A stretch of 38,419 bases of DNA, taken from positions 1 through 38,419 of the forward strand of contig JAGBNF010000010.1 of assembly GCA_017634555.1 (NCBI GenBank), in the 5' to 3' direction. Source of the DNA: Eubacterium sp. (GTDB lineage: Bacteria; Bacillota; Clostridia; Lachnospirales; Lachnospiraceae). Below, piece by piece: positions 26,170 to 34,603 of this stretch (positions within the stretch are counted from its first letter, which is position 1; each line of letters begins with the position of its first letter). Below the pieces are notes generated by a model. It was not told where the DNA came from and made no database searches. It saw nothing but the letters and a program-made list of their open reading frames with translations. A program made the translations under genes and the position numbers.

Positions 26170-26218
26170 AAAAAAATCATCACCTGCCCGAAGCTATCCC
26201 GAACAAGTGACGATGATT
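26170..26218 (-). terminator. Terminator of the metN-to-aminotransferase operon
   Basis: AATCATC (26175-26181) pairs with GATGATT (26212-26218), extended inward by partly paired CACCTG/CAAGTG. Seven T follow on the minus strand. It overlaps the aminotransferase stop codon and marks the end of the nine-gene operon. Confidence 0.8.
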
Positions 26219-27392
26219 ACTGTGCTTTATAATTCTTAACCTTAGAATGAAACGTACTGAGTCTCTCCAGCGCCTCGTTAAGCGTCTCATCCTTCTTTGC
26301 AAAATGCAGTCTTATATAATTATTTATATCCTCCTTAAAGAAGCTCGAACCCGGAACTGCGGCTACTCCCACATTTTCTGCCAGCCACTCTGAGAAATGA
26401 AGATCGTCCTTCACTCCGTATTCACTGACATCGATCAGTACAAAGTATGCTCCCTGAGGTTCTGTATAATTAAATCCCAAGCTTTTTAATCCGCTTAAGA
26501 AATGATTCTTCATATGTGTATAATGTGCTTTCAGCTCATCATAATATGAATCCGGAAAATTAAGTCCCACAACCGCTGATTCCATAAGAGGAGCAGCTGC
26601 TCCGACTGTAAGAAAATCATGGACCTTCTTCGCACGCTCTGTAATCTCAGGCGGTGCAATAAGATATCCTAGTCTCCAGCCGGTAATCGAATAAGTCTTC
26701 GATAGCGAGCTGCAGGAGATCGTTCTTTCATACATTCCGGGAAGGGAATTGATATATACATGCTTATTCCCTTCATAGACTATATGTTCATAAACCTCAT
26801 CTGTAATAACAAATGTATCATACCTGATTGCCAGGTCACTTATTATCTTTAATTCATCATACGTAAAAACTTTCCCCGACGGATTGGATGGATTGCAGAG
26901 AACCAGTGCTTTAGGATGCTGTTTGAAAGCATCTTCCAGCACTTCCGGATCAAAGCTGAAATTCGGTGGGTTAAGCGGAACATATATAGGCTCCGCTCCC
27001 GACAGAATTGCGTCTGCACCATAGTTCTCATAAAAAGGGGAAAATACAATTACTTTTTCTCCGGGATTCACAACAGTAAGCATGGCCGTTATCATAGCTT
27101 CCGTGCTTCCGCATGTAACCAGTATTTCCGATTCCGGATTAATGGTTCTTCCCATGAACCGCTCCTGTTTCTTAGCCAGTGCATCTCTGAAATTCTTGGC
27201 CCCCCAGGTTATAGGATACTGATGCGGCCCTATAAGGGATATATCCTGCAGCCTTTTCACTATTTCATAGGGTGGATCAAAATCCGGAAACCCCTGTGAC
27301 AGGTTAATGGCTCCGAACTTGTTCGCCACTCTTGTCATTCGTCTTATGACGGAATCTGTAAACCCGTTTGTTCTTTCCGATAATTCCGGCAC
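26217..27392 (-). CDS. Class I PLP aminotransferase of the metNI-KFOR operon
   Basis: A 391-residue fold-type I aminotransferase. PLP lysine K232 lies in SSLSKTYSITGWRLGYL; NPSNPSGKV and VITDEVYEHI are further PLP contacts. INLSQGFPDFDPP at the N-terminus is typical of the methionine/kynurenine/aromatic aminotransferase branch, which would fit 2-oxoacids larger than pyruvate, but substrate is not proven. The start is GTG with AGGAGG 10 nt upstream. It is the last gene of the operon, 21 bp after the acyl-CoA ligase, and would interconvert an amino acid with the 2-oxoacid handled by the oxidoreductase. Confidence 0.9.
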   Translation of the reverse strand: MPELSERTNGFTDSVIRRMTRVANKFGAINLSQGFPDFDPPYEIVKRLQDISLIGPHQYPITWGAKNFRDALAKKQERFMGRTINPESEILVTCGSTEAMITAMLTVVNPGEKVIVFSPFYENYGADAILSGAEPIYVPLNPPNFSFDPEVLEDAFKQHPKALVLCNPSNPSGKVFTYDELKIISDLAIRYDTFVITDEVYEHIVYEGNKHVYINSLPGMYERTISCSSLSKTYSITGWRLGYLIAPPEITERAKKVHDFLTVGAAAPLMESAVVGLNFPDSYYDELKAHYTHMKNHFLSGLKSLGFNYTEPQGAYFVLIDVSEYGVKDDLHFSEWLAENVGVAAVPGSSFFKEDINNYIRLHFAKKDETLNEALERLSTFHSKVKNYKAQ

Positions 27393-27413
27393 TTTACTGT
27401 ATCCTCCTAAATC

Positions 27414-28748
27414 CTAGATCAGGATAGCCTGATCTATGGTATGTTCTCTCTCATCTATCAGTCTCTTTGCCTTATGTTCTGCACGCGGCAGCTCACCGTC
27501 GGCAAGAACCGATATATAATCCGGCTTAACACCGATGCGGCTCTTAAGTGCCGCAATTACTCTCTTCTTGATATCTTCTTCATCAGCACCCGGATCTGCC
27601 TTCTCAACCTCGACTCCGTACCTTGCGGTATATTCACGTTCAAATACATGAATCCTGTACTCTCCTGTGATTCCTTCGAAGTCTCTGAGAACCGTCTCAA
27701 CATCCGATGGGAAGATATTTACACCTGATACGATGAACATATCGTCTTTTCTTCCGACTATATGAATTCTCGCGGAGGTGCGTCCACATTTACATATACT
27801 CTTATCAACATAGCCGATATCGCCTGTCCTGAAACGGATCATAGGACGTGCATGCTTTCTGATACTTGTAAACACCAGCTCTCCGGTCTCACCATCCGGC
27901 AGAACCTCTCCTGTCTTCGGATCTACAGTCTCAACAAGAATATGATCTTCTGCAAGATGAAGGCCATCCTGCTCATCACACATTCCGGCACATGCACCGA
28001 ATATATCGGATAATCCGTAGAACTCAATAAGCTTGGCATCCCACAGCGCTTCTATCGCCTTTCTGGTTGCAGGAATCGATCCACCAGGTTCACCGGCTAC
28101 TATGATTCTCTTAACTGAAAGACTCTTCGGATCTATACCCTTTTTCTTGGCGGTTTCACCGAGATACAGTGCATATGAAGGTGTTGTCTGAATAAATGTA
28201 GGTTTAAACTGCTGAATGATATAGAGCAGTCGGTCCGACGGAAGGGTTCCTGACCAGATACCCATAGCTCCCAGTCTCTGAGCACCGAGAACACATGGGC
28301 CTCCTACGAAAAGGCTGAAGTTGATTCCATGCATATATCTGTCATGTTTTCTCATTCCTGCCTGAAACATAAGACGGCTCTCGATATTCATCCATTCATC
28401 GAAATCCTTCTGTGTGAACGGACTTATGGTCGGAACTCCTGTAGAACCGCTGGAAGCAGATATGAATACGATATCCTTCTCATCAACTGCACACAGCTCA
28501 CCTACCATCGAGCCTATTCCCTGTGTAGTTCTTTCCGTCTGTTTATCAATAAAAGGAAGCTTAGCTATATCTTTCAGACTCTCAATATCTTCAGGCTTTA
28601 CACCTGCTTCATCAAAGCTTTTCTTGTAATATACCGTATTATTATAGGCATAGTTAACTATTTCCTTCAAACTTATCAGCTGATGATGTTCTATTCCTTC
28701 TCTGGGAAGAGTCTCCCATTCCTCTTCCCAGTATTTTTTCTCACTCAT
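27414..28748 (-). CDS. paaK: PaaK-type phenylacetate/acyl-CoA ligase (AMP-forming)
   Basis: A 444-residue adenylate-forming enzyme of the phenylacetate-CoA ligase type. The phosphate-binding loop is SASSGSTGVPT (97-107). YGLSDIFG, TGELVFTS and RFRTGDIG are the other AMP-binding motifs, and a C-terminal domain of about 100 residues follows. It joins a carboxylic acid to CoA at the cost of ATP, or the reverse. PaaK homologues are often found beside indolepyruvate or other 2-oxoacid:ferredoxin oxidoreductases, as here. The acid could be aryl, branched or a methylthio acid. GGAGG is 9 nt before ATG; 68 bp separate it from metQ, the widest gap in the operon, with no clear terminator. Confidence 0.9.
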   Translation of the reverse strand: MSEKKYWEEEWETLPREGIEHHQLISLKEIVNYAYNNTVYYKKSFDEAGVKPEDIESLKDIAKLPFIDKQTERTTQGIGSMVGELCAVDEKDIVFISASSGSTGVPTISPFTQKDFDEWMNIESRLMFQAGMRKHDRYMHGINFSLFVGGPCVLGAQRLGAMGIWSGTLPSDRLLYIIQQFKPTFIQTTPSYALYLGETAKKKGIDPKSLSVKRIIVAGEPGGSIPATRKAIEALWDAKLIEFYGLSDIFGACAGMCDEQDGLHLAEDHILVETVDPKTGEVLPDGETGELVFTSIRKHARPMIRFRTGDIGYVDKSICKCGRTSARIHIVGRKDDMFIVSGVNIFPSDVETVLRDFEGITGEYRIHVFEREYTARYGVEVEKADPGADEEDIKKRVIAALKSRIGVKPDYISVLADGELPRAEHKAKRLIDEREHTIDQAILI

Positions 28749-28816
28749 TTCTATCTGCCTCCGATTATCTTATTTGATAACTTAATTGAAATGTACTGCC
28801 AACAAAGCCGCCTTAT

Positions 28817-29845
28817 TTAGTCTTCAAACTGACTCTTGTCATAATATCCGTCAGGCTTTGTAAATGACTTATACTGCTTTGACTCATCCTCGATTGCTTC
28901 TCTGAATGCATCTGAATGAACAATCTTATCAATATCCTTTGTAAGCTCTGAATCAACATCACTCTCTCTTACAGCGATTACATTGATATATCCTTCTGTA
29001 ACCTTCTCGTTGTAAAGATCTGTTGAAAGGTCAAGATCTGCTGCGATAGCGAAATATCCGTTGATGATTGCTGCGTCAACGCTGTCAAGGATGTTCGGAA
29101 GAACTTCCGGATTCATTTCCTCAAATACATAGTTGTTTGGATTGCTTGTAATGTTGTCTACTGTTACTGTAGCCTGCTCTACACTCTGATCAAGCTCGAT
29201 CTTACCTGTCTGAGCCAGAACTCTGAGGGCTCTTGCTGTATTTGTAACATCGTTAGGAATAGCAATTGTTGCTCCCTCAGGAAGCTCATCAAGTGAGTTA
29301 TACTTATCTGAGAAGATTCCCATTCCTGCTGTAGGTATCTCAGTTACATATGTAAGATGAGTTCCGTGTTCCTTATTGAAGTTGTTAAGATAGATTGAAT
29401 GCTGAAATACATTTATTGTGATCTCACCTTCATCTACTGCTGTGTTAGGTGTTACGATATCTGAAATCTCGATTATTTCAACATCATATCCAAGCTCGTT
29501 CAGTGATGGTGTGATTGCATCCTCAAACATATCTCCGTAAGGACCTGCACATACACCGACTGTAACCTTCTTTGATTCATCCGGCTTAGCATCAGCCTTA
29601 TCCTCTTCAGCTTTTTCTGCCTCAGTGGTCTCTGCTTCTGCAGCTTCTGTCTTTGTCTCTTCAGATACTACTTCTGTAGCCTCATCATTATTTTCCCCAG
29701 CAGCTGCATTAGCTGTATTCTGCGCTGCAGTTCCCTCTGATGACTCGCCATTTGTACCGCAGGCTGTGGAAAGTCCCAATGCTGCGATAATAAATCCTGT
29801 TGCAAGTGCTCTTACAATTCCTTTTTTGTTAATTCTCTTTCTCAT
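28817..29845 (-). CDS. metQ: MetQ/NlpA-type methionine-binding lipoprotein
   Basis: A 342-residue exported lipoprotein. The signal ends in a lipobox LSTAC with C29 as the lipidated residue. Residues about 32-90 are a low-complexity Ala/Glu/Thr linker, making it longer than the usual 270. The NlpA/MetQ fold then starts at VTVGVCAGPYGDMFEDA and includes VFQHSIYLNNFN, ATIAIPNDVTNTARAL and INGYFAIAADLDL. It should deliver methionine, or a related amino acid, to MetNI, which are encoded at the other end of the operon. GGGAGG lies 9 nt before the ATG, and only 14 bp separate it from the oxidoreductase beta gene. Confidence 0.92.
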   Translation of the reverse strand: MRKRINKKGIVRALATGFIIAALGLSTACGTNGESSEGTAAQNTANAAAGENNDEATEVVSEETKTEAAEAETTEAEKAEEDKADAKPDESKKVTVGVCAGPYGDMFEDAITPSLNELGYDVEIIEISDIVTPNTAVDEGEITINVFQHSIYLNNFNKEHGTHLTYVTEIPTAGMGIFSDKYNSLDELPEGATIAIPNDVTNTARALRVLAQTGKIELDQSVEQATVTVDNITSNPNNYVFEEMNPEVLPNILDSVDAAIINGYFAIAADLDLSTDLYNEKVTEGYINVIAVRESDVDSELTKDIDKIVHSDAFREAIEDESKQYKSFTKPDGYYDKSQFED

Positions 29846-29859
29846 AATTTTTGTCCTCC

Positions 29860-30717
29860 CTAAGATATACGTTCCCAGGTTACATCCCTGTCCCGTATTA
29901 TTGTTTCTATGTCCTCATCACTAAGATGTTTGAACCTGTTTTGTCTTTTAATATAATGTTTCACATCACCGAACTCCTTCGGCTTCCTGTTTATATGAAT
30001 CTCGCCGTCATAATATTCGGCCAGATACCAGAGACCGGTATCAACAACTTCTCTCGCAATCTCAACAGTCTCCGATGTATCAATTCCCCAACCTGTGGGA
30101 CAAGGCGCTATCACATGGATAAAGGATGTTCCCTTAACCTTTGAAGCCCTCTCAACCTTGGCTGCGAAATCTTCTATATAACCTATGCTGGCCGTAGCCG
30201 CATAAGGAATATCATGTGCCGCAACTATCTGAAAAAGATTTTTCTTTTTTCTGATGTTTCCCTTACCCGCAGTACCTGCAGGAGTTGTGGTGGTTGTTGC
30301 GCCATAAGGTGTAAGACCGCTCTTCTGAATTCCCGTATTCATATATGCTTCATTGTCGTAGCATATATAGATAACATCATCATTTCTGTCTATAAGTCCG
30401 GAGAGCGCCTGAATACCTATATCAGCAGTGCCTCCGTCACCGGCGATTCCGAGTATGTGATAGTCCTTGATGCCCATAGCCTCTGCGCCGGCTTTAAGAC
30501 CGCTCATAACCGCTGCAGTTCCTGCAAATGCAGATATGATCGCATTATTCGCAAAACTCATCTGCGGATAATTAAAACTTACTGCTGACATACAGCCTGC
30601 AGGCTCTACGAGAAATGTTCTCTCTCCCAGAACTTTGAGAGCTGTCCTTACTGCAAGTGCTCCTCCGCATCCGGCACAGGCTTTATGTCCGTAGAAAAAT
30701 TCATTATCTGATATCAT
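29860..30717 (-). CDS. porB: 2-oxoacid:ferredoxin oxidoreductase, beta (TPP) subunit
   Basis: A 285-residue thiamine-diphosphate subunit of a four-subunit (PorGDAB-type) enzyme. HKACAGCGGA supplies C14 and C17, AGC supplies C42, and a fourth Cys lies in APCPTGWG; together they should bind the proximal [4Fe-4S] cluster. The TPP/Mg site is GIAGDGGTADIG followed by YDNEAYMNTG. It converts a 2-oxoacid plus CoA to acyl-CoA, CO2 and reduced ferredoxin, or the reverse. Pyruvate, 2-oxoisovalerate or another oxoacid cannot be told apart by eye; the operon argues against plain pyruvate. Its start overlaps the alpha gene by 14 bp. Confidence 0.93.
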   Translation of the reverse strand: MISDNEFFYGHKACAGCGGALAVRTALKVLGERTFLVEPAGCMSAVSFNYPQMSFANNAIISAFAGTAAVMSGLKAGAEAMGIKDYHILGIAGDGGTADIGIQALSGLIDRNDDVIYICYDNEAYMNTGIQKSGLTPYGATTTTTPAGTAGKGNIRKKKNLFQIVAAHDIPYAATASIGYIEDFAAKVERASKVKGTSFIHVIAPCPTGWGIDTSETVEIAREVVDTGLWYLAEYYDGEIHINRKPKEFGDVKHYIKRQNRFKHLSDEDIETIIRDRDVTWERIS

Positions 30718-31885
30718 CTTCTACCTCCAATCCTATGAACCGAACCGGCTCACTTACATCTTTATTAATAAGCACCTCGAAGCATTCTCTGATATTATCG
30801 ATTGAAATATCTCTTCCTCCGATTCCTCCGATAAAGTCATAGGAATCGATGGAACGCTTTCCTTTAACCAGTGCCGAATTAACATTCGTATAAACCGTTC
30901 CTTCATATCCGAAGGAAATATCCTTTTCAATTACCCCGACCGTCTTTGCATTTTTTATAGCTTCCATCAGCTCTTCAGTCGGGAAAGGTCTTATCATTCT
31001 GATTTTTACCGCACCGGCTTTCACGCCTTCCTCTCTCAGAAGATCCACCGTATTTCTCACAAGACCGCTCAGACTTCCCAGCGTAATAATAATGTACTCT
31101 GCGTCCTCTGTTTTATAACCGCTTACCGCTCCGCCGTAGCCTCTTCCGGTTACCGTTTTATATTCGGCATCGACTTTCTTCAATTCCTCTATCGCATGAA
31201 GCGACGCCTTATGATGAAGGAGATTGAATTCTTCATTCAATTCAGGTCCTACCGTAAATGCCATGCTGACCGGATTATCCGGATCCAGCTTATCCCAGGT
31301 GACTCTCGGTTTTATAAAGTCTTTCAATTCCGATGGATCCGGTATCTCAACTGCCTCATAAGTATGAGTCAATATAAATCCATCCAGATTTATCATTACC
31401 GGAAGTCTTACATCTTCATTTTCTGCAAGTCTGTATGCCTGAATTGCCATATCCAGGCTCTCCTGAGCATCCTCCACGTATATCTGTATCCATCCCGAAT
31501 CCAGCTGGGAGAGCGAATCTCTGTGATCGCCGTATATACTCCATGGAAGTGCCGTAGCACGGTTGGCATTCATCATGACTATGGGGAACCTTCCTCCCGA
31601 CACATAGGTAAGACCCTCTGCCATATAGAGAAGTCCCTGCGATGAGGTTGCCGTAAATGCACGGGCTCCCATAGCGGATGCCCCCATGGCGGTCATCATT
31701 GCCGAATGTTCAGACTCCACATGGATAAACTGACTGTCCAGTGTGCCCTCTTCAACCATTTCGGCAAGTCTTTCAACAACTATGGTCTGAGGAGTTATTG
31801 GATAAGCGGAGATAACCTGAACACTGGCCAGACGAATTCCTTCTGCAAAGGCTTCATCACCTGATATAAACTTAGTCTCACTCAC
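30704..31885 (-). CDS. porA: 2-oxoacid:ferredoxin oxidoreductase, alpha subunit
   Basis: A 393-residue alpha subunit. It has the conserved SAYPITPQT that contacts the TPP pyrimidine ring, then VESEHSAMMTAMGASAMGAR with catalytic-site glutamate, TATSSQGLLYMAEGL, and a C-terminal transketolase-like domain with GSLSGLVRNTVDLLREEG and IRPFPTEEL. Length is normal. The ATG overlaps the delta stop by 4 bp (ATGA) and the 3' end overlaps the beta gene, so the subunits are co-translated. Confidence 0.94.
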   Translation of the reverse strand: MSETKFISGDEAFAEGIRLASVQVISAYPITPQTIVVERLAEMVEEGTLDSQFIHVESEHSAMMTAMGASAMGARAFTATSSQGLLYMAEGLTYVSGGRFPIVMMNANRATALPWSIYGDHRDSLSQLDSGWIQIYVEDAQESLDMAIQAYRLAENEDVRLPVMINLDGFILTHTYEAVEIPDPSELKDFIKPRVTWDKLDPDNPVSMAFTVGPELNEEFNLLHHKASLHAIEELKKVDAEYKTVTGRGYGGAVSGYKTEDAEYIIITLGSLSGLVRNTVDLLREEGVKAGAVKIRMIRPFPTEELMEAIKNAKTVGVIEKDISFGYEGTVYTNVNSALVKGKRSIDSYDFIGGIGGRDISIDNIRECFEVLINKDVSEPVRFIGLEVEDDIR

Positions 31886-32178
31886 TTCTGCTCCTCCATA
31901 GTTACTGCTCCGAGTCTGCAGATTTTACTGCAGATCCCGCATCCCTTACAAAAATCATAATCTATCTTTGGTCCCTCATCTGTCCTTCGTATTACTCCAT
32001 CCGGACAATAGAGGTAACATTGATAACAGCTCACACATTTTTCTGTATCAATAACAGGTGTCCTGTTTCTCCAGCCTGCATTTTTATCAACCAGAAATCC
32101 GGCCTTCGTACTTCCGCCCTGCGGTATATCCGACAATTTCTGAATTACCGGTCTTTTTTCAAGCGACGGTATGATCAT
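31882..32178 (-). CDS. porD: 2-oxoacid:ferredoxin oxidoreductase, delta (2x[4Fe-4S]) subunit
   Basis: A 98-residue ferredoxin-like subunit passing electrons from the beta subunit to external ferredoxin. Two full cluster motifs are present: C48-X2-C51-X2-C54-X3-C58 (CVSCYQCYLYC) and C77-X2-C80-X2-C83-X3-C87 (CKGCGICSKIC). The start at 32178 (MIIPSLEKRP) is preferred because GAGG lies 8 nt before it; a Met eight codons earlier lacks this. The gene overlaps the gamma gene by 20 bp and alpha by 4 bp. Confidence 0.94.
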   Translation of the reverse strand: MIIPSLEKRPVIQKLSDIPQGGSTKAGFLVDKNAGWRNRTPVIDTEKCVSCYQCYLYCPDGVIRRTDEGPKIDYDFCKGCGICSKICRLGAVTMEEQK

Positions 32179-32710
32179 TTTTCTTTCCTCTGCTAACTTC
32201 ATAAACTTTGTTTAGTAGCTTTATGTTTTTATCTACCAGTTTCTGAGGCATGTAACCTCTTATAGACTCAGCCACATCCTGAATCGCTATTGCTTCTTCA
32301 ACCTGCAGGAGCAGTCCGAGAATTCCTATATTTACTATCGGACGTCCCAGAAGCTCTTCCGCATCGGTTGAGATATCCTGTGTAAGTATTCGCGGATCGC
32401 TGAATTCAGATCTATCCTTCTTAGTATTTATCAGAAGATATCCTGTATCCTTCAGACTCTCTGTCAGTGAATCCACATAAAGCGAGTCATCCAGAACTAT
32501 TATGTAATCATTCTTCTTTATAATGCTTCTGTCTACAATCCTGTCCTCAGAGATCTTGGTAAATGCTCGAATGGGAGCACCCCTTCTCTCCGGCCCGAAT
32601 GAGGGAAAGGCAAGACTGTTATAACCTTTGATCATTGCAGCGGCTCCGAGTATACGAGATGCAGTGAAGGCTCCCTGGCCGCCGCGTCCGTACCATGTAA
32701 TTTCCTTCAT
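32159..32710 (-). CDS. porG: 2-oxoacid:ferredoxin oxidoreductase, gamma subunit
   Basis: A 183-residue gamma subunit: MKEITWYGRGGQGAFTASRI at the start (the GRGGQG CoA-binding loop), SFGPERRGAP, IVLDDSLYV and NIGILGLLL are all family features. The start 32710 is used because the protein family begins MKEI.. at this point and GAGG lies upstream; a longer frame adds 12 residues. One base separates its ATG from the metI stop, so a metabolic enzyme gene is directly coupled to the transporter permease gene. Confidence 0.94.
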   Translation of the reverse strand: MKEITWYGRGGQGAFTASRILGAAAMIKGYNSLAFPSFGPERRGAPIRAFTKISEDRIVDRSIIKKNDYIIVLDDSLYVDSLTESLKDTGYLLINTKKDRSEFSDPRILTQDISTDAEELLGRPIVNIGILGLLLQVEEAIAIQDVAESIRGYMPQKLVDKNIKLLNKVYEVSRGKKNDHTVA

Positions 32711-32711
32711 A

Positions 32712-33395
32712 TCAGCCTCGCCTTCTCTTGTTAAGAACTCTGACAACTATATCTCCTGCTGTCTGGATCAGCTGAACCATGATGATGAGAATAACAATAC
32801 AGATGATCATTACTTCCTTCTGATATCTCTGATATCCGTATCTGTATGCCAGATCTCCGATTCCGCCTCCGCCAACAAGTCCTGCCATGGCTGAAAATCC
32901 GAGTACGGTTATGGCTGTAACGGTTATATTCTTTATCAGTGATATCCTCGCTTCAGGAAGAACTATCTTCCATATTACATGACTCTTTTTTGCTCCCGAC
33001 GAAAGCACTGCTTCAAGCACTCCCTTATCTACTTCTGAGAAGGACACTTCCGCAAGCCTTCCGAAGAAGGCCGCTGCCGCTATCGTAAGCGGAACGATGA
33101 CTGCTTTGGAACCGATCTTGGTTCCAACGATTACTGCTGACAGCGGCAGAAAGAAGATCATGAGTATCAAAAATGGTATTGAACTTATCATATTAGATAT
33201 GAAGCCCACCGTTTGATAGACCGGTGTATTCTTTGAGAGCAGCGGCTCGTTCGTTATATAAAGGATGAGCCCCAGCCCGATTCCAAGTATTATGGCAAGT
33301 GCGAGAGATGTAAGTGTCATAAATGCTGTCTCGCTGAGTGCCTTTACCAATTTGTCCTGAATCTCAGTAAATGCTTTAATAAATGCTTCAAGCAT
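32712..33395 (-). CDS. metI: Methionine ABC transporter permease MetI
   Basis: A 227-residue permease with about five membrane helices. The cytoplasmic coupling (EAA) loop is EAVLSSGAKKSHVIWKIVLP (about 129-148), and the family signature GLVGGGGIGDLAYRYGYQRY lies near the C-terminus. The start at 33395 (MLEAFIKAF) is chosen because GGAGGTGG is 6-8 nt upstream; it overlaps the metN stop by 8 bp. It forms the membrane channel with MetN as ATPase. Confidence 0.94.
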   Translation of the reverse strand: MLEAFIKAFTEIQDKLVKALSETAFMTLTSLALAIILGIGLGLILYITNEPLLSKNTPVYQTVGFISNMISSIPFLILMIFFLPLSAVIVGTKIGSKAVIVPLTIAAAAFFGRLAEVSFSEVDKGVLEAVLSSGAKKSHVIWKIVLPEARISLIKNITVTAITVLGFSAMAGLVGGGGIGDLAYRYGYQRYQKEVMIICIVILIIMVQLIQTAGDIVVRVLNKRRRG

Positions 33396-34425
33396 ACTTA
33401 ACCACCTCCGTTTTGCCTGCATTTTCTTCTATATACTTCAGTGCCTTTTCAACTCTGTCATTACTTCCTTCTATACTGACATACAGAACACCGAGTGGTC
33501 TTTTCTTGATAAACTCTATCTTTCCGTGAAGTATATTTACCTTTACGTAGAATTTTTCGATAACCTCACCTATCAGAGCTTTCTCGGCATTCTCACTGTA
33601 ATAATCAATTCTTACTATCGTACCTTTGACGTTATCAATGATATTTTGCGGAATCTTGAATTTGTTTTCCTTTTTAAGAAGACCTGCTGTAAAATCACTC
33701 TCCGGTTTCGTGAATACATCATATACATCTCCCTCTTCAACCACCTTGCCCTTATCCATTACCACAACTCTGTCGCAGATTTCTTTGACCACGTCCAGCT
33801 CATGAGTGATGATAACGGTGGTTATATTCAGTTCCTTGCTGATTTTCTTTATAAGCTTCAGAACCGCCTCTGTTGTTTCGGAATCCAGTGCTGAAGTAGG
33901 TTCGTCACAAAGAAGAATTTTCGCATTGTTGGCGAGTGCCCTTGCTATGGCAACTCTCTGTTTCTGACCTCCTGAAAGCTGTTCCGGATAGGCATGCTTC
34001 TTATCTTCGATTCCTACATAACGGAGCAGTTCCTCTATTCTCTCAGCTGCTTCCTTTTTGGATTTACCATTCTCCGTAAGAACAAATTCTATATTTGAAT
34101 AAACATCTTTGCTGTTGATCAGATTGAAATGCTGAAATATCATTCCAATATTACTTCTCAGTTCTCTCAGCTCTCTTTCTTTCAGCTTCCCAACTTCTCT
34201 TCCGTCTACATCCACAATTCCGGATGAGATACTTTGAAGACCGTTAATGGTTCTGAGCAGTGTACTCTTTCCGGCTCCCGAGGAACCGATGATTCCGATG
34301 ATTTCTCCTTCCTTGATGTTGAAGCTCACATTTTTTACAGCTTCAACCTTTTTTCTTTTCTGTCTGAAACTCACGCTTACATTTTCAAAACTGATAATAT
34401 TATTTCTTTCTTCTTTATCAGACAT
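33388..34425 (-). CDS. metN: Methionine ABC transporter ATPase MetN with NIL domain
   Basis: A 345-residue ABC ATPase. Walker A GSSGAGKS (47-54), Q-loop FQHFNLI, signature LSGGQKQR, Walker B ILLCDEPTSALD and switch His in ITHELDVV are complete. Residues about 270-345 form a C-terminal NIL domain (VRIDYYSENAEKALIG, VNILHGKIE), which in E. coli MetN binds methionine and inhibits transport, so a methionine-type substrate is likely. Start 34425 (MSDKEER) has GGGAG 9 nt upstream; the earlier Met at 34434 overlaps that site. It is the first gene of the operon, after a folded leader. Confidence 0.94.
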   Translation of the reverse strand: MSDKEERNNIISFENVSVSFRQKRKKVEAVKNVSFNIKEGEIIGIIGSSGAGKSTLLRTINGLQSISSGIVDVDGREVGKLKERELRELRSNIGMIFQHFNLINSKDVYSNIEFVLTENGKSKKEAAERIEELLRYVGIEDKKHAYPEQLSGGQKQRVAIARALANNAKILLCDEPTSALDSETTEAVLKLIKKISKELNITTVIITHELDVVKEICDRVVVMDKGKVVEEGDVYDVFTKPESDFTAGLLKKENKFKIPQNIIDNVKGTIVRIDYYSENAEKALIGEVIEKFYVKVNILHGKIEFIKKRPLGVLYVSIEGSNDRVEKALKYIEENAGKTEVVKYA

Positions 34426-34442
34426 ATCTCTCATCTCCCGCT

Positions 34443-34539: not shown

Positions 34540-34574
34540 TGTTTGTTATAAGTTTTTCATCTACCTATAGGCAT

Positions 34575-34603
34575 TTGCTATATCCGCTTATTTGGAATAC
34601 AAT
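34575..34603 (+). promoter_or_regulatory. Promoter of the pseudouridine synthase gene
   Basis: TTGCTA (34575-34580) and TACAAT (34598-34603) with a 17-bp spacer, about 31 bp before the ATG. It lies back to back with the metN leader. Confidence 0.65.

Follow-up and report, generated by a model that had tools for sequence, protein, structure and literature searches.

The 38,419-nucleotide contig JAGBNF010000010.1 of Eubacterium sp. (Lachnospiraceae; GCA_017634555.1), here called the window, carries on its minus strand nine open reading frames (ORFs) in the order metN-metI-porG-porD-porA-porB-metQ-paaK-aminotransferase (Table 1). They encode a methionine-type importer, a four-subunit 2-oxoacid:ferredoxin oxidoreductase (KFOR), a PaaK-like acyl-coenzyme A (CoA) ligase and an aminotransferase. 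We suggest that this operon may supply methionine when sulfur amino acids are short. The gene order and families originally predicted were confirmed by the ORF check and by Pfam and NCBIfam profiles for all nine genes. The spacing, predicted to be at most 21 bp except for one gap of 68 bp, is correct for the gaps (1 bp before porG, 14 before metQ, 68 before paaK and 21 before the aminotransferase gene) but not for the overlaps, since two of these (35, 44, 4 and 14 bp, from the ORF coordinates) are longer.

The single terminator expected at the end of the operon is present as one strong 17-pair hairpin after the aminotransferase gene, and the sole other minus-strand candidate between 26050 and 34700 has 5 pairs (27535-27521). 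Terminator-like sites on both strands number 8 against 5.6 in shuffles; promoter-like sites number 25 against 18.4, and internal promoters are possible. The operon was thought to start at 34425, while the ORF begins at 34434. Both are in-frame ATGs, the former being the next one after 34434 and the likelier start, with GGGAG better placed there. For porG, the ATG at 32710 was preferred to the TTG at 32746. Rfam at gathering scores gave three matches in the window, all of them tRNAs, so no T-box or S-adenosylmethionine (SAM) riboswitch is found before metN at this threshold.

Table 1. Features of the operon in the window.
Feature	Coordinates	Strand	Basis
metN-like ABC ATPase with NIL domain	33388..34434	-	PF00005, PF09383; start 34434 or, likelier, 34425
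metI-like permease	32712..33422	-	BPD_transp_1; PRK10782 182 bits
porG, gamma subunit, 2-oxoacid:ferredoxin oxidoreductase	32159..32710	-	PF01558; TIGR02175 over cut-off
porD, ferredoxin-type delta subunit	31882..32202	-	TIGR02179 over cut-off
porA, alpha subunit	30704..31885	-	POR_N/PFOR_II; over no NCBIfam cut-off
porB, thiamine pyrophosphate (TPP)-binding beta subunit	29860..30717	-	TPP_enzyme_C
metQ-like lipoprotein	28817..29845	-	Lipoprotein_9
paaK-like AMP-forming acyl-CoA ligase	27414..28748	-	AMP-binding + AMP-binding_C_2
Class I aminotransferase, YbdL/kynurenine-aminotransferase kind	26217..27392	-	Pfam/NCBIfam profiles, nearest solved structures
Intrinsic terminator-like hairpin	26176..26214	-	17 pairs + T-run
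Palindromic operator-like site, GATATAGCAAATGCCTATAGG on minus strand	34564..34584	.	Core TATAG-N7-CTATA intact

A reductive-carboxylation pathway to an amino acid requires a ligase, a KFOR and an aminotransferase, and the three are encoded together here. The ligase has the AMP-binding fold and the PaaK C-terminal domain (PF00501, PF14535), 4r1l as its nearest solved structure, and scores below the phenylacetate-ligase cut-offs (318 of 646.3 bits for TIGR02155, and 340 of 700 bits). Ligases of the PaaK type are AMP-forming. The alpha, beta, gamma and delta subunits of the KFOR are all encoded, PorC_KorC and PorD_KorD being over cut-off. The nearest profile to PorA is that of archaeal pyruvate synthase (440 bits, cut-off 550), and neither PorA nor PorB reached an equivalog cut-off for pyruvate, ketoisovalerate, indolepyruvate, phenylglyoxylate or oxalate enzymes. 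The aminotransferase obtained 330 of the 420 bits of PRK09082 (YbdL-type methionine aminotransferase), and its nearest solved relatives are Rv0858c, then YbdL and kynurenine/glutamine transaminases. No NCBIfam equivalog cut-off was reached by the ligase, the alpha and beta subunits or the aminotransferase. Four other POR-gamma domains are encoded elsewhere in this genome (2.33 Mb, 47 contigs, 72% complete). Two of these belong to long frames of 1176 and 1179 aa, each a single ORF as is typical for pyruvate:ferredoxin oxidoreductase (PFOR), so pyruvate seems to be already served.

From 200 genomes of the same family (the window's own included) searched with PorA, 190 have a match of some kind, and apart from the window's own the genomes that reach 60% identity or above are three, G047, G103 and G189 (61-65%). 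Each of these has porGDAB grouped with paaK and the aminotransferase gene. A PorA at 48% identity lies in a different cluster (L034, in G071; by eye, a TRAP-type transporter first), with no paaK seen in its 20 kb. When the ligase alignment was scanned against 84,980 named species, 301 relatives were found, and the best 80, which are the nearest ones, form with the window and the three family loci a set of 84 loci. Many loci of this set lie on short contigs, and one contig is counted twice, as L033 and L071; L071 was dropped from the ligase tree and from the counts over the 40 loci that are flanked by 6 kb or more on either side. Core genes are present in most of the 84 loci (paaK 83, porB 76, porA 73, aminotransferase 71, porG 70, porD 67), and 38 of the 40 have at least four of the five core genes other than paaK. 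The nine-gene order is complete in 8 loci, the window and 7 other named Lachnospiraceae loci (the metN of L058 is truncated at the start of its contig), so the arrangement is not unique to this strain. The porB-metQ-paaK segment is kept in four further loci, themselves cut or changed.

To judge from record titles, the ligase occurs in Bacillota, Fibrobacterota, Synergistota, Campylobacterota, Spirochaetota, Pseudomonadota (Succinivibrionaceae) and Thermoplasmatota (Candidatus Methanoplasma), and it is accompanied by por genes in six phyla, archaea included. The ligase of one Bacteroidota metagenome-assembled genome groups with Ruminococcus and may be misbinned. The Synergistota contig ends before any por gene, and two spirochaetal contigs have paaK and porGDAB with no aminotransferase seen. 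In a class-wide draw of 391 genomes, the ligase was found at E <=1e-150 in 16, the window included. Thirteen of the 15 other loci, four of which are species already in the named set, contain porA, porB, paaK and the aminotransferase gene, and the other two (L155, L158) have the ligase, aminotransferase and MetNIQ without por in the stretch. Their importers are MetNIQ in 9, SsuABC-like in 3 and neither in 3. The early idea of a dedicated amino acid / 2-oxoacid / acyl-CoA module is supported.

Profiles recognise MetN with its NIL domain, MetI and an NlpA-type lipoprotein in the window, all of them below NCBIfam cut-offs (MetN 324 of 499.7 bits, TIGR02314; MetI 182 of 212, PRK10782; MetQ 129 of 374). 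The split transporter of the original prediction is a feature of the window's Lachnospiraceae group, but not of other lineages, which carry an unsplit MetNIQ or an SsuA/SsuB/SsuC-like system (Ruminococcus-type, fibrobacterial and other carriers); the importer is therefore an accessory. Importer genes are found in 28 of the 40 loci, MetNIQ-type in 13 and SsuABC-like in 15. Placed on the tree of the ligases, the MetNIQ label must have changed at least 7 times on branches with good support, the labels being taken from the neighbourhood and 'none' including cut contigs and L033, where Ssu-type genes were hidden by ORF picking. The core enzymes are thus kept while the importer swaps between two types known for sulfur, which points to a sulfur substrate. 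SsuA-like binding proteins were found in 27 of the 84 loci (SsuA_fam 111 of 163.5 bits), and a PCCRQ motif, perhaps part of the ligand site, is invariant in all 20 that were aligned.

In Neisseria MetQ, methionine is held by its amino and carboxyl groups through R156, N213 and N238, and its thioether is surrounded by Y81, F98, H100 and Y103 (PMC6739813). Six of these seven residues are kept in the MetQ of the window (F98, H100, Y103, R156, N213 and N238), Y81 being the exception. Y81I and N215Y are shared by all 12 members of its type, that is, the window and 11 relatives. The second MetQ of the genome has Y81S and the rest of the pocket kept. In the three Succinivibrio MetQ proteins (3/3), N213 is replaced by Pro and N238 by Leu, with R156, F98, H100 and Y103 conserved. 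Since the amino-group contacts are lost and the thioether pocket is retained, we infer that this pattern would fit a methionine skeleton minus its amino group, such as 3-methylthiopropionate. The genome also has a second, canonical metNIQ (L179, contig C13), in the order cystathionine lyase-cysK-189-aa protein-metNIQ-Fe-alcohol dehydrogenase-LysR.

The neighbours that recur in the 84 loci are mostly related to sulfur metabolism and regulation: cysteine synthase (25), cystathionine-lyase-type enzymes (18), LysR (34), Rrf2 (15, with weak resemblance to IscR/CymR) and TIGR00027 methyltransferases (9). An importer, CysK, cystathionine lyase, Rrf2, LysR, methyltransferase or Nif-like gene is nearby in 38 of the 40 loci. 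Around other KFORs, 2 of 17 stretches have the same genes, one match being weak, in a control that differed by using BLAST best hits at 1e-25 and leaving Nif-like genes out. In L051, metE-metF lie directly upstream of the operon with their own palindromic site, and in L033 metK and cysK are near it. Beside the module we found a corrinoid methyltransferase cluster with LarE and a PatB-type C-S lyase in L153, and one with a DUF1847 protein in L154; a PatB-family C-S lyase is also found in L079. Nitrogenase-like clusters are near the module in L074, L079, L081, L086 and L113 (Methanoplasma, Ruminococcus), those of L074 and L079 having NifH/D/K-like or NifB-like genes, with NifH over cut-off and NifB- and NifD-like proteins below it in L079. 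Among the profiled neighbours, which are a part of all neighbours (clusters C17-C23, C25-C28 and singletons were left unprofiled), there was no sulfonate-cleaving enzyme, no aromatic or branched-chain gene, and no kinase, phosphotransacylase or ADP-forming ligase. A PF04909 amidohydrolase lies beside the module in L031 (7749-8603, profiled) and in 12 further loci (cluster C15).

A dyad search of the module upstream regions (83 after dropping L113, which has no separate paaK ORF; 8 have fewer than 200 bases) found an exact GTTATA-N9-TATAAC in 7, with 0 in 200 shuffles. With up to one mismatch it is found in 15 (0.16 expected), and with up to two in 24 (1.98). We searched the 14-base pattern GTTATAG-N7-CTATAAC in 8 whole genomes and read the contexts in three, where 7 of 12 sites with at most one mismatch flank methionine or cysteine genes, 4 are inside genes and 1 is elsewhere. 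The window's genome has 5 of them: the exact one is between a LysR gene and metE-metF, two are in the cystathionine lyase-cysK-metNIQ cluster, one is before metY and one before an AmpH-like gene. At up to two mismatches the canonical metNIQ cluster has four operator-like sites. Of the 4 sites in the genome of L051, one is at metE-metF, one is flanked by a metY-like gene and Rrf2, and two are intragenic. The genome of L052 has 3, one flanked by metY and Rrf2 and two intragenic.

An operator model was built from 13 non-module sites, leaving out three 2-mismatch sites near methionine, cysteine or module genes, the AmpH-like site and the sites inside genes. Under this model the site upstream of metN tops the whole 38.4 kb (16.6-17.9 bits by strand, next 9.0), and when the upstream region was shuffled 2000 times its score was attained in a fraction of 0.001. 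The distance from the site to metN is 129 bp for the first ATG and 138 bp for the likelier one, and the site took no part in defining the pattern. The two LysR proteins of the genome, one beside metE and the other beside the canonical metNIQ, are 45-61% identical to three module-side LysRs, and the palindrome would serve as an operator for the LysR regulator that accompanies it.

Upstream of the operon, 7 loci have short ORFs with many Cys and Met codons: Succinivibrio (L073, L076, L101), Ruminiclostridium (L066), Tyzzerella (L068), Anaerotignum (L077) and G103 (L032). One of the peptides ends CMCMCMCM and another NMCTCMCMMRPKNCCTIRCCIMSRM. Before the next gene, L032, L068 and L077 have a GC-rich hairpin followed by a T-run, L076 and L101 have weak hairpins, and L066 and L073 none by the rule used. 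These leaders look like attenuation by the supply of cysteine and methionine. Of the 83 upstream regions, 8 contain small ORFs with at least 4 Cys, where shuffles give 0.45, and four of those 8 (L075, L117, L122, L130) are CC-rich peptides of another kind. The latter, located upstream of the SsuA-like gene, end in PDCCGG (L122), PDCCAGK (L075) and PDCCGE (L130 and L117). Cys-rich small ORFs in L093, L097 and L099 were discounted as apparently out-of-frame pieces of cysK. One in the window, which overlaps a gene on the other strand, was set aside too.

We consider it very probable that the operon belongs to a methionine/cysteine-shortage regulon, and probable that it works in the reductive direction. 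That it is a methionine-supply pathway run reductively and switched on by sulfur amino acid shortage is the reading we favour, with moderate confidence, and we are only marginally less confident that its conversion is 3-methylthiopropionate to methionine. Both substrate and direction we infer from the relatives and the control sequence. Given the shortage-type control and the AMP-forming ligase, the route acid to acyl-CoA to 2-oxoacid to methionine would be the most economical. The substrate imported by MetNIQ (SsuABC-like elsewhere) would be an organosulfur compound, for which 3-methylthiopropionate is the likeliest candidate, although some lineages may import methionine itself. The PaaK-like ligase would then make the CoA thioester, converting ATP to AMP, the four-subunit PorGDAB with reduced ferredoxin would add CO2 to give 4-methylthio-2-oxobutanoate, and the aminotransferase would convert this to methionine. 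The neighbouring metK, methyltransferase, cysK and cystathionine lyase could pass the sulfur on to cysteine. In Bacteroides, a biosynthetic role has been proposed for an AMP-forming ligase beside indolepyruvate:ferredoxin oxidoreductase (IOR) (PMC13285125), and the 2-oxoacid oxidoreductases of P. furiosus indicate that the required chemistry exists in this enzyme class (PMC3942289). The two alternatives first offered, methionine oxidation and reductive synthesis of the amino acid from its acid, are not equal: the second, with a methionine-type substrate, fits best.

Several results weigh against this reading. Two of the 40 loci, L109 and L115, have none of the listed sulfur, importer or regulator genes, and in the window itself no paaK-por module lies near cysK or metE and no leader peptide was found in the upstream region. 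The odds of the dyad search are optimistic, since the motif was picked from the same upstream regions, and at up to two mismatches there is no clear excess over the reversed control in the 8 genomes (own 15 vs 26). Support for the pattern rests on the better sites and on their positions, read in 3 of the 8 genomes. The site in the window departs from the 14-base pattern at 3 positions, and with so many mismatches allowed chance would give 1.54 matches per window. What the looser dyad test counted there was a second, overlapping half-site. Module upstream regions reach 16 bits in 20 of 82 cases, with none expected and 0 of 258 in control upstream regions from other KFOR stretches, but this is not an independent result, as the pattern came from module upstream regions and the training sites were chosen near methionine and cysteine genes. 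Moreover, 53 of the 82 are under 8 bits, and 8 of 262 upstream regions of unshared genes in the module loci reach 16 bits (one is that of metE in L051). The SsuABC-like binding protein is nearest to alkanesulfonate-type and THI5-type proteins, which could point to a sulfonate. As the three contacts to the amino and carboxyl groups are kept in the MetQ of the window, this importer may be one for methionine and may be uninformative about the acid. We know of no assay of the operon's enzymes.

The same reductive logic and regulon could serve a different sulfur acid, an unlikely explanation. Methylthioacetate could give S-methylcysteine, to be cleaved by PatB or cystathionine lyase, 3-mercaptopropionate could give homocysteine, and a sulfonated acid could give cysteate or homocysteate. 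The PatB-family and cystathionine lyases that adjoin modules and the SsuA-like binding proteins would agree with this, and anaerobic salvage proceeds by way of 2-(methylthio)acetaldehyde (PMC6302742). However, a MetQ with intact thioether pocket and an aminotransferase related to YbdL and kynurenine/glutamine transaminases fit methionine better, and the sulfonate variant lacks a cleaving enzyme among the profiled neighbours.

It is improbable that the operon is an oxidative pathway, in which methionine would be imported, transaminated and oxidised to 3-methylthiopropionyl-CoA with reduction of ferredoxin and release of the acid. The steps are reversible in principle, a methionine-type importer is within the operon, and KFOR-linked methionine fermentation is known in P. 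furiosus (PMC3942289). On the other hand, a site common to metE-metF, metY and metNIQ, together with the Cys/Met leaders of relatives, implies expression under shortage, where degradation would be paradoxical. An AMP-forming ligase favours acyl-CoA synthesis (PMC13285125), and no kinase, phosphotransacylase or ADP-forming ligase was seen among the neighbours profiled.

The original prediction took an aromatic or branched-chain substrate as its main alternative, handled reductively or oxidatively as in rumen bacteria and methanogens. We regard this as very improbable. PaaK takes its name from phenylacetate, many carriers are rumen organisms by the titles of their records, and reductive carboxylation of 2-methylbutyrate was proposed for M. 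ruminantium (PMC2812497), but the ligase is far under the phenylacetate-ligase cut-offs, the shared site and neighbours concern sulfur, and no context for such acids was seen among the profiled genes. Least probable of all is a generic pyruvate/acetate oxidoreductase present in a sulfur operon by chance, as might be suggested by the nearest profile of PorA, since the genome has its two single-chain PFORs, the KFOR is frequently paired with PaaK and the aminotransferase across phyla, and the 17 wide stretches round other KFORs (L034-L050) are without the module and nearly without sulfur neighbours.

Tentatively, and with a confidence a little short of even, we propose that the operon represents an undescribed anaerobic methionine-making pathway, in which CO2 would be fixed with ferredoxin onto 3-methylthiopropionate, a waste of methionine fermenters. 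It would be controlled by shortage of sulfur amino acids, occur in methanogenic archaea and in several bacterial phyla of the gut, rumen and termite gut, and close a loop of methionine cross-feeding. If true, it would show how strict anaerobes reuse an intact methylthio acid by CO2 fixation and would connect the fermenters of methionine with recipient microbes of the rumen and gut. It would also explain what is done by a set of genes for which phenylacetate ligase and pyruvate synthase are the closest profiles. In the methionine salvage routes described in PMC6302742 and PMC10418091, either oxygen is required or methanethiol is an intermediate, and little study is said to have been given to what becomes of methylthiopropionate. 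Methionine synthesis from 3-methylthiopropionate by reductive carboxylation was not found among the matches listed from the open-licence PMC literature, seen as partial texts, which is weak evidence of absence.

Some of the components resemble known systems. The importer has the three subunits, NIL domain and 6 of 7 pocket residues of the MetNIQ methionine importer, but it is split round porGDAB and has Y81I and N215Y. Type I mlp clusters (corrinoid S/Se-methyltransferases) and the methylthio-alkane reductase MarHDK, connected with the use of methyl-sulfur and methyl-selenium, share methionine transporters, methionine aminotransferases and Mar-like genes (PMC10418091), and such company is beside the module in L153, L154, L074 and L079. 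The main text of that paper has no match for phenylacetate or oxidoreductase, so the KFOR-PaaK module seems undescribed there. The anaerobic oxidative branch (KFOR with phosphotransacylase/kinase or ADP-forming ligase, HpdDEFGJK) has the same four-subunit KFOR and enzymes linking acids and CoA esters, whereas the window has an AMP-forming ligase and a sulfur context (PMC13285125). The closest logic is the reductive carboxylation of branched-chain and aryl acids in rumen bacteria and methanogens, which has the same acid, CoA ligase, ferredoxin-dependent 2-oxoacid synthase and aminotransferase (PMC2812497, PMC7356843, PMC13285125) and was also proposed for the Bacteroides IOR with its AMP-forming arylacetate ligase (PMC13285125). 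The operon differs from it by the sulfur neighbours, sulfur-type importers, methionine-gene site and predicted methionine product. This logic is known for branched-chain and aryl acids, and no variant for sulfur acids that has importers and a regulon of its own was among the matches listed.

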